Positions 54,020 through 57,209 of a stretch of DNA of 59,605 bases are shown in pieces. A program made the translations under genes and the position numbers. This DNA comes from a bacterium (GTDB lineage Bacteria > Zixibacteria > MSB-5A5 > WJJR01): the NCBI GenBank assembly GCA_035559435.1, contig DATMBC010000024.1, forward strand, positions 1-59,605, in the 5' to 3' direction. The notes under the pieces were generated by a model. The model made no database searches. It saw nothing but the letters and a program-made list of their open reading frames with translations, and was not told the origin of the DNA. Numbering within the stretch: the stretch's first letter is position 1; every line of letters begins with the position of its first letter.

Positions 54020-54044
54020 TCAGCATGACTTGCGAGCGACAAAA

Positions 54045-54075
54045 AAAGCCCCCGGTCCGCAGGACCGGGGGCTTT
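54045..54075. terminator. bidirectional intrinsic terminator
   Basis: Fourteen-base perfect stem AAAGCCCCCGGTCC / GGACCGGGGGCTTT with a GCA loop; preceded by a run of seven A, so it is best for the minus-strand Cys-rich gene and usable for the M23 gene. Confidence 0.9.
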
Positions 54076-54100
54076 GGCGTTCAAATCGGAGAAGTCGGAA

Positions 54101-55021
54101 TTACTTGGTGCCGCCGGTGCTGACAGTGACGGCGGTGGCCGGCTTGGTCTCTTCGGCCTTGGCGGTGTTGGCCGAGCCCTTGGAGGCGCAGCAGCCGCTG
54201 CCGGAGGCCGAGGCCTTGGTGGCGCTGGCGCAACCGGAGGCGCTGGCGGTGATGAACTTCACTTCGCCGGCGGCTTCCGCCTTGGCGGCGGCGACTTCGG
54301 CTTCAGCGCGGGTCAGGCCCGAGGCGACCTTGGCATCGATCCACGCTTCACGCGTGTAATCGGAGCCGGTGATCACGTTGGCCTGGGTGGCCTTGGCGGC
54401 CTGGCACTTCTCGTAGCAAGCCTCCGCCTCGGCGCGGGTCATTCCCTTTTCGGCCATGCACTTGGCGATGCAGGCTTCCTTGTCACCGCAGGACTTGCCT
54501 TCGGTGGCATTGGCAAACGACGCGGTGGCCTTTTCCGACGAGCAACCCGAAGCGCTGGCGGTGGTCGCCGAGGCCTTCGAGGCGCAAGAGGCGGCGCAAC
54601 CGGAGGCGCTGGCAGTCTGAGCCGAGGCCTTGGAAGCGCAACCCGACGCGCTGGCAGTCTGGACCGAAGCCGAACCGGTGTGGCAGGCGCCGGAAGCGAC
54701 CATCGCGGTGTAGACCTTCTCGGCCTCGTCACGGCTCAGGTTCTTCTCGGCCATGATCGCCTTGACGCACTCTTCCTTCGAGCAGGTCTTGTTCTCGCTC
54801 GCGGTGGCCGACGCGGCCTTCACGTTCGAGGACTTATCGGCATCGCAGGCCTTGTTGGAGGAGCAGCCCGGACCGGCATAGGCCGTGGTGGTGGAAAACA
54901 ACGAGCTGATGAGGCAGCCGTTGCCGCTACAGGTCATGCCGCTGAAATGCGCGGCGCTGCCCACGAGCGCGAACACGGCAACGAGAGCAACCGCGGTCTT
55001 GTGGTTTTTCAGGAACGTCAT
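54101..55021 (-). CDS. secreted Cys-rich, ASASGC-repeat protein of unknown function
   Basis: 306 residues from the ATG after GGGAGGAAG. Signal peptide-like start (VALVAVFALVGSAAHFSG). About nineteen Cys. Three features repeat: four copies of TASASGC; low-complexity K/A/S/T linkers; and three helix-turn-helix units with [LM][ST]R[DA]EAE, each headed by Cys pairs (CSKEECVKAIMAEK, CGDKEACIAKCMAEK, and a Cys-free third copy). No known domain recognised. The Cys pattern points to metal binding or disulfide-linked surface material. Divergent from a metal-transporter-like gene 252 bases away. Confidence 0.8.
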   Translation of the reverse strand: MTFLKNHKTAVALVAVFALVGSAAHFSGMTCSGNGCLISSLFSTTTAYAGPGCSSNKACDADKSSNVKAASATASENKTCSKEECVKAIMAEKNLSRDEAEKVYTAMVASGACHTGSASVQTASASGCASKASAQTASASGCAASCASKASATTASASGCSSEKATASFANATEGKSCGDKEACIAKCMAEKGMTRAEAEACYEKCQAAKATQANVITGSDYTREAWIDAKVASGLTRAEAEVAAAKAEAAGEVKFITASASGCASATKASASGSGCCASKGSANTAKAEETKPATAVTVSTGGTK

Positions 55022-55162
55022 TCGAGCTTCCTCCCTTGGTTTATTCGCATACCTGTCTTTAATTTCGACTGTATCAGACAAAAACTGTAGACCATCAGCG
55101 GGTCCTGCACTATTACAACGGGCTTTGCCAGTTTGATCCCGAAAATCGACCTATCCGGGCCG

Positions 55163-55190
55163 ATTTTAGCTGGCAAAACGACATGCTCAA
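55163..55190 (-). promoter_or_regulatory. candidate promoter for the Cys-rich gene
   Basis: Minus strand TTGAGC, 16-base spacer, TAAAAT. The -10 region overlaps the right arm of AAAATCG-N12-CGATTTT (55142-55167), a possible operator. The divergent region is clearly more AT-rich than the rest of the window. Confidence 0.45.
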
Positions 55191-55273
55191 CTTAAATATA
55201 CCCCGCCTTAAGTCAATACATTTTCGTAACCCGTTAACCGACAGCGCCCTGGCGTTGCCGACCGGGACCTTTC

Positions 55274-55987
55274 ATGAACGGACAACTCAAAGTTCTTCTG
55301 GGCACAGACACCACCCTTGGCTTTATCCACACGCTTCTGGGGCCGGATCACTACCTGCCGTTTGTGGCACTTGCCAAGACAAAGGGGTGGTCGGCGCGTA
55401 AGACTATGGTCATCACGATCTTATGCGGACTCGGACATGTTTTGGGCTCAATTGTGCTCGGAATGCTCGGCGTCGGGCTGGGCTGGGCGTTGGGATCGAT
55501 CGAAAGATTCGAGGCGTGGCACGGGGAGTGGGCGGCTTGGGCACTGATTGGTTTCGGGCTTGTCTACCTCGCCTGGGGGGTGCGTCAGGGAATACATAAC
55601 CACCCGCACACTCATCGCCATGTCCACCCGGATGGGACGATCCATAGCCATGTGCATGGATATCAGAGCGCGCGCGCCCATGTTCATGAAGGCGCATCCG
55701 GCGCGCCGGTGATGCCCTGGATCCTCTTCATCATTTTTGTGTTGGGACCCTGTGAGCCGCTGAGCCCGGTTCTCATGGCGCCGGCGGCCGCTCACCGTTG
55801 GGGCGGCGTGGTCCTGGTGGCCGCGGTCTTCGGCGCGGTGATCATTGCCACCATGTGCGCGATGGCATGGGCGATTCTGTATGGACTGGGGCTTTTGCGC
55901 GTGCAACAGTTGTCGCGCTGGGCGCATGCGCTGGCGGGGTTTTCGCTGTTTGCCTGCGGCGGCGCCATCCAATGGCTGGGCTTGTGA
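55274..55987 (+). CDS. NicO/UreH-like metal transport membrane protein
   Basis: 237 residues, about six helices. GFIHTLLGPDHYLPFVALAK carries the H-x4-DH-type motif of nickel/cobalt transporters, GLGHVLGSIVLGMLG follows in helix 2. Between helices 3 and 4 is a very His-rich loop (about 107-142; HNHPHTHRHVHPDG, HSHVHG, HVHEG), as in metal efflux proteins such as RcnA. LGPCEPLSPVLMAP in helix 4 is typical of the UreH/SafE-like branch. The metal and direction are unknown; Cys might also be the cargo as in DsbD-like relatives. Confidence 0.78.
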   Translation: MNGQLKVLLGTDTTLGFIHTLLGPDHYLPFVALAKTKGWSARKTMVITILCGLGHVLGSIVLGMLGVGLGWALGSIERFEAWHGEWAAWALIGFGLVYLAWGVRQGIHNHPHTHRHVHPDGTIHSHVHGYQSARAHVHEGASGAPVMPWILFIIFVLGPCEPLSPVLMAPAAAHRWGGVVLVAAVFGAVIIATMCAMAWAILYGLGLLRVQQLSRWAHALAGFSLFACGGAIQWLGL

Positions 55988-56102: not shown

Positions 56103-57209
56103 ATGGCCAAGATCATGTTGTTCATCGATGGCACCTGGCTGTACTCGAACATGCCCCGTCTGGCCGAGAATTACCTCCGTCCTGATTTTCATATCGACTT
56201 CGGCAAGCTCCCGCGGGTGCTTTCCGCCGAACTGGCGGCGCACATGGGGGGCGACGACGACATCCGTCTGGATGTGGTGCGCACTTACCTGTTCGGCAGC
56301 TACGCCGACAACTACGATCTGCGCGACGAAGACGCGGTCCAGCGGCGGTTGGACTTCTTTGCGATGCTCAAAGAGGACTTCCACTACGAGGTCGAGACGT
56401 TTCCGATCAATTTTCGCGGGCGGCGTCTGCGCGGCATCGACCGCGGCGCCGAGGACACCTTCGAACCGAAGGAGAAGTGCGTCGACATCGCCATGGCCAC
56501 AACGATGGTCCACCTCGCATCGATGCCGGGCGGGTACGACATCGCCATCGGCGTGCTCGGCGACGAGGACTTCCGTCCGGCGTTGCAACTGATCCGCCGC
56601 CTGGGCAAACGGGTGGCGATCGCCTCGATCAAGTCCAGTTGCAGTCCGGCGCTCTCCGACCCGCGCGACGAGGCGCGGGTGAAGGATTTCGACATTATCT
56701 GGCTGGATGATCTGCGCGACAAATTGGAACTGCGCTACGAGCCCCACCTGCTGGAGTGCGAGTCGCCCATCCACAAGGGGGACCGCAAGGTCTGGACCAC
56801 CTTCTATCCCCGCCGCGGCAGGCGGTTCTACTGCGATGCCTGCCGCGCCGAATTCGCCCGTCAAAAGGAAGAGCAGCGCGACCTGGTCAGCTCGGGGGTG
56901 GAAAACGGCGACGCGGCGGAAGTCGAGGCCGACATGCCACTGCCGGCGATTGGCGCCACGCTCACCGGACGGGTAGCGCGGCGGTTCCCGGAGAAGGGGT
57001 ATGGTTTCCTGCAGGGCTCCGACGGACGCTCGTACTTCTTTCACATCACCGACATCACCGCCGGGCTGGACTTCAACGCGCTGGAGGAGGGCTGGCAATT
57101 GGACTTCGACGTCAAACGCCATCCCTCGGAGGACAAGGCCGGCGCGGCGGCCAATGTGCGGCCGCATGTGGAGGCGGGCGCGGAGTCGGAACCAAGGATC
57201 GTGATATAG
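56103..57209 (+). CDS. NYN-domain (LabA/DUF88-like) protein with C-terminal cold-shock-like domain
   Basis: 368 residues from the ATG after AGGAG. N-terminal PIN-like NYN domain (1-220): MLFIDGTWLYSN with first catalytic Asp, KEKCVDIAMATTMVHLA and GVLGDEDFRPALQLIRRLGK with further acidic residues. A small CDAC element (FYCDACRAEF, about 240) follows. The C-terminal 70 residues (from about 284) are an OB fold with RNP-like motifs GYGFLQG and SYFFHITDI. The combination suggests an RNA-binding ribonuclease. Confidence 0.88.
   Translation: MAKIMLFIDGTWLYSNMPRLAENYLRPDFHIDFGKLPRVLSAELAAHMGGDDDIRLDVVRTYLFGSYADNYDLRDEDAVQRRLDFFAMLKEDFHYEVETFPINFRGRRLRGIDRGAEDTFEPKEKCVDIAMATTMVHLASMPGGYDIAIGVLGDEDFRPALQLIRRLGKRVAIASIKSSCSPALSDPRDEARVKDFDIIWLDDLRDKLELRYEPHLLECESPIHKGDRKVWTTFYPRRGRRFYCDACRAEFARQKEEQRDLVSSGVENGDAAEVEADMPLPAIGATLTGRVARRFPEKGYGFLQGSDGRSYFFHITDITAGLDFNALEEGWQLDFDVKRHPSEDKAGAAANVRPHVEAGAESEPRIVI

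Follow-up and report, generated by a model that had tools for sequence, protein, structure and literature searches.

A putatively exported, cysteine-rich protein with three predicted α-hairpin repeats, from a family found so far in one bacterial order

The α-hairpinins are defined by the cysteine pattern CX3C-Xn-CX3C together with two antiparallel helices, and in the solved members the first cysteine is bonded to the fourth and the second to the third (PMC7191063). The four cysteines are C10, C14, C27, and C31 in Luffin P1, where the bonds are Cys10-Cys31 and Cys14-Cys27, C11, C15, C28, and C32 in BWI-2c, and C7, C11, C25, and C29 in EcAMP1 (PMC7191063). A twin-CX3C helical hairpin is also found in the small Tims (Tim9/Tim10; zf-Tim10_DDP, PF02953), which are eukaryotic, contain one hairpin per protein, and depend on Mia40. 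Cysteine-rich helices with CXXXC motifs occur as well in Csp1, which is exported, and Csp3 (both DUF326); a Csp is a four-helix bundle with cysteines along its whole core, and in Csp3 a CXXXC motif within one helix binds Cu(I) (PMC5171941).

The gene described here lies in a window of 59,605 nucleotides, the whole stretch of DNA that was analyzed. It occupies 54101..55021 on the minus strand, from an ATG at 55021 to a stop at 54101, exactly where the initial annotation had located it, and encodes a protein of 306 amino acids (P0001), 19 of which are cysteines. An antisense open reading frame for 338 amino acids (54074-55090, plus strand) was rejected because the homology, Shine-Dalgarno sequence, promoter-like site, and terminator are all on the minus strand. 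The Shine-Dalgarno sequence GGGAGG with its ATG spans 55019..55037, a sigma70-like promoter candidate, TTGACT-N16-TAAGTT, lies at 55189..55216 (a consensus match only), and a strong intrinsic terminator directly follows the stop (54040..54075); it has a T run and a 14-bp stem, the hairpin lying at 54045-54075. The same promoter layout precedes the genes of relatives (TTGACA-N16-TAAGTT in G005 and TTGACA-N16-TAAATT in G003), and terminator-like hairpins directly follow the stop in G001, G003, G004, and G005. The gene is a single-gene unit, and its control signals suggest that it is probably well expressed. Apart from a chance snoRNA match (E 0.86), searches of the window at E values up to 1 found no Rfam RNA or riboswitch upstream, and none of relevance was found near the relatives' genes.

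Relatives were sought among 132 genomes of the phylum; searching by class and by phylum covered this same set. Confident matches to a profile of the hairpin unit occur in 7 of the 132, that of P0001 included, and these belong to two families of a single order. Five of the six other genomes were reached by BLAST (G001, G003 with two genes, G004, G005, and G008), and the hairpin profile added G007; the close genomes G002 and G006 gave no match. Among named genome contigs, one relative turned up, in MAG WY4.bin59, apparently the same as that of G005, and no relatives were found on plasmids. Unit-profile matches in G046, G016, G034, and further genomes (E 7e-4 to 0.01) extend over 14 to 24 positions of the profile, and we regarded them as chance fragments. 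By sequence comparison, this is a previously unnamed family found so far in one bacterial order, within a searched set in which phyla beyond the 132 genomes were covered weakly. Group II intron RNA domains lie close to the G005 homolog (L004, 572-856, minus strand). In G007, the homolog adjoins a gene for a second exported cysteine-rich protein (L050, 5196-5789, plus strand), which has repeated CCxxGxxALAAGxxLPxCCL motifs, matches neither Pfam nor the hairpin profile, and is essentially confined to that genome.

P0001 itself matched nothing in Pfam, NCBIfam, or the PDB sequences, and we found nothing in the literature on such a protein. Matches to Cytidylate_kin2, UBA, and Toxin_2 were below cut-offs or not significant. 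The initial view that no known domain is apparent has therefore survived these searches as well as Foldseek, and no clear match to a known metallochaperone or S-layer family emerged (DUF326 reached E 0.5 at best; Pfam and NCBIfam gave no S-layer or anchor domain). The N-terminal region (amino acids 1-49; 54875..55021, minus strand), conserved in G001, G003, and G005, has a basic n-region, a hydrophobic stretch at approximately amino acids 10-28, a cysteine-containing segment, and then AYAGPGC, where the putative cut site would fall between AYA and GPGC. We infer from this N-terminus that P0001 is exported. It is the one feature that favors the earlier description of the protein as secreted; for the further description as a surface protein there was no such sign, no anchor or sorting signal being seen in P0001.

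The body of the protein contains three helical units, all encoded on the minus strand. Unit 1 (amino acids 76-114; 54680..54796) carries C80, C85, and C113 and has predicted helices at 82-93 and 97-109. Unit 2 (174-212; 54386..54502; helices 181-192 and 196-217) has the twin motif CX3C-X13-CX3C, formed by C184, C188, C202, and C206. Unit 3 (218-254; 54260..54370; helices 224-233 and 238-250) lacks cysteine and is nonetheless predicted to share the fold of the others. A hairpin profile built without this genome's units scored the three at 32.0, 56.0, and 29.6 bits, while the best of 5000 shuffles of P0001 reached 3.3 bits; judged by sequence, the units are homologous to one another and to those of the relatives. 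The internal duplication proposed in the initial annotation is thus confirmed, the profile search that it recommended having recovered all three units along with relatives in the order, and its two units with paired cysteines are correct in substance (C184/C188 with C202/C206 in unit 2; C80/C85 with C113 in unit 1).

Structure prediction, also proposed at the outset, gave three hairpins on a disordered chain. The AlphaFold model of the full chain (mean pLDDT 46.6) has exactly three helix-turn-helices, at a pLDDT of ~70 to 81, and is nearly all disordered elsewhere, with linkers below 50; a model of units 2 and 3 alone agrees with it (mean pLDDT 70.9), the underlying alignments being very shallow in all cases (2 to 4 sequences, and for the full chain just the window's protein and a relative from a related locus). 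Foldseek returned no match below 0.001 for either model. We are fairly certain of this structure, whereas what we say of function is a guess.

Cysteines are also present in the linkers. Four exact copies of TASASGC, as originally reported, lie at amino acids 122-128 (54638..54658), 136-142 (54596..54616), 154-160 (54542..54562), and 258-264 (54230..54250), again on the minus strand; the last is followed by a near copy, KASASGS, at amino acid 269 and by a conserved GCC motif (C277, C278). When the mature part of P0001 was shuffled 2000 times at constant composition, no heptamer occurred more than twice. Linker length and repeat number differ among relatives.

The cysteines of the hairpins follow a register that we counted over 22 aligned units from 8 proteins. 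Cysteine is present at position 10 in 20 units, at position 14 in 11, and at position 27 in 8; position 31 is cysteine in 11 units and histidine in 4. All 8 units with Cys27 also have Cys14, which is found in just 3 of the 14 units lacking Cys27 (Fisher p=0.001, the units not being phylogenetically independent). Both units without Cys10 lack Cys31 too, seven units retain the outer pair alone, and several units with a cysteine at position 5 have another at 36 or 37. The complete pattern is CX3C-X12/13-CX3C. The sums of the paired positions are nearly equal (14+27=41, 10+31=41, and 5+36/37=41-42), as expected for positions that face each other in an antiparallel hairpin. The co-occurrence of Cys14 and Cys27 fits the Cys1-Cys4 and Cys2-Cys3 bonds of the α-hairpinins.

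We therefore favor, at a probability of roughly 45%, a reading in which P0001 is a stand-alone structural protein, exported and probably well expressed, whose three short α-hairpins sit on a disordered chain rich in Ala, Ser, Thr, and Lys. By analogy with the α-hairpinins, facing cysteines (14-27, 10-31, and 5-36/37) of the cysteine-bearing hairpins would most likely form cross-hairpin disulfides, leaving the extra linker cysteines (TASASGC, AGPGC, and GCC) to crosslink copies of the protein into an envelope or extracellular matrix or, alternatively, to bind a soft metal. The X12 and X13 spacings, which equal those of solved α-hairpinins, support this reading, and disulfides are also suggested by the gain and loss of cysteines in pairs, the outer pair alone persisting in seven units. 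DSBA, Thioredoxin_4, DsbB, and VKOR were not recognizable in any of the nine genomes of the order (G000 to G008) by searches that do match in control genomes, and thioredoxin controls matched in all nine; this weakens the disulfide reading but leaves it standing. COX1-type oxidases are present in seven of the nine genomes, P0001's own among them; oxidation of the thiols by oxygen, or by some other thioredoxin-like protein, is therefore conceivable.

The divergent upstream neighbor of the gene (55274-55987, plus strand) encodes a His-rich multi-pass permease of 237 amino acids with the motifs HTLLGPDHYLPF and GPCEPL, another copy of which lies at L019 7064-7768. No Pfam family scored above its cut-off against the permease; the G001 copy is weakly DsbD_2-like (E 0.014, below the cut-off), and the G004 copy contains an in-frame TGA. 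In family f2, the gene instead has an EamA transporter as its downstream neighbor. A plus-strand gene at 56103-57209 encodes a protein with NYN and cold-shock domains, and a similar gene lies 3' of the permease in G001. An M23 peptidase gene is near the P0001-family gene in both G000 and G004, as are genes that we take, from their sequences, to be phosphosugar-mutase-like and glmS-like; none of these three says anything about the function of P0001.

The initial annotation had offered metal sequestration or disulfide crosslinking, and this was the right pair of rivals. We rate metal binding below the disulfides and consider it somewhat unlikely: reduced cysteines (and histidines) of the hairpins and the GC/GCC linkers would bind a soft metal such as Cu(I) or Zn in the manner of a Csp or metallothionein. 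The cysteine content, the missing oxidation enzymes, and the Csp3 precedent for Cu(I) on a single-helix CXXXC (PMC5171941) all favor it. So do the histidines at position 31, a swap of the metal-ligand type, which complete C-C-C-H sets in two G007 units and occur in two further units. Yet many units have only two cysteines or none, and units with the outer pair alone are easier to reconcile with a disulfide than with a metal site of four ligands. The permease, suggestive as a His-rich neighbor, adjoins the gene in G000, G001, and G004 but lies apart in the other four genomes with both (G003, G005, G007, and G008), and it is present in 40 of the 132 genomes, mostly without the P0001 family; shared synteny can explain the pairing, and we rejected a functional link. 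The lack of a nearby riboswitch and of a meaningful DUF326 match further weakens the case for metal.

The variable linkers and the absence of a match in G002 and G006 would suit a fast-drifting, low-complexity exported protein with only a bulk role, such as filler or adhesive, but two families of the order have conserved the hairpins with their cysteine register, and within the family the promoter layout and the terminator are conserved too, making this improbable. Longer precursors give rise to some plant α-hairpinins, and three homologous hairpins with matching spacing, separated by disordered linkers, could likewise be cut out as separate peptides. This we regard as very improbable, given that no dedicated protease, exporter, or modification gene was seen to adjoin the gene repeatedly in relatives, that the linkers showed no conserved cut site of the dibasic or GG type, and that the hairpins of one protein differ, one having no cysteine. 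The cysteine ladder leaves us leaning toward a mostly disordered exported chain with disulfide-pinned hairpins.

P0001 cannot be filed as an α-hairpinin, a small Tim, or a Csp, because it has no sequence or fold match to any of them: no α-hairpinin was matched among PDB sequences or by Foldseek below 0.001, zf-Tim10_DDP reached at best E 0.037, in two of 19 units and at noise level, with no match for full proteins, and DUF326 reached its E of 0.5 in one unit. A faint ECV..GM[ST]RxxA resemblance to the first two UBA helices (USP5 UBA, E 0.07, not significant) lacks the third helix, and an exported bacterial protein is not expected to bind ubiquitin. The Csps share cysteine-rich CXXXC helices with P0001, whose model, from a very shallow alignment, predicts separate two-helix hairpins and disordered linkers. 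The small Tims share the twin-CX3C hairpin and a non-cytosolic compartment and differ in the eukaryotic and Mia40-dependent character described above. It is doubtful that a bacterial family independently reached the hairpin of the plant hairpinins and small Tims as a repeated exported module oxidized without Dsb or VKOR; if true, this would bring the twin-CX3C hairpin into bacteria in repeated form, in organisms seemingly lacking the standard disulfide machinery, and would offer a compact test case for the maturation of exported multi-cysteine hairpins without DsbA or VKOR. Otherwise, P0001 would be a test case for a metal binder of a new kind, exported and thiol-based. The plant α-hairpinins (Luffin P1, BWI-2c, EcAMP1, and VhTI) likewise pair antiparallel helices with a CX3C on each and X12 or X13 between; unit 2 and units of several relatives have this motif, with helices predicted, while units 1 and 3 lack its full cysteine set, and several units of the family have one cysteine pair or none. 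In our best reading, this one bacterial protein would work in the manner of an α-hairpinin, with the module repeated three times along a disordered chain whose linkers bear cysteines of their own.
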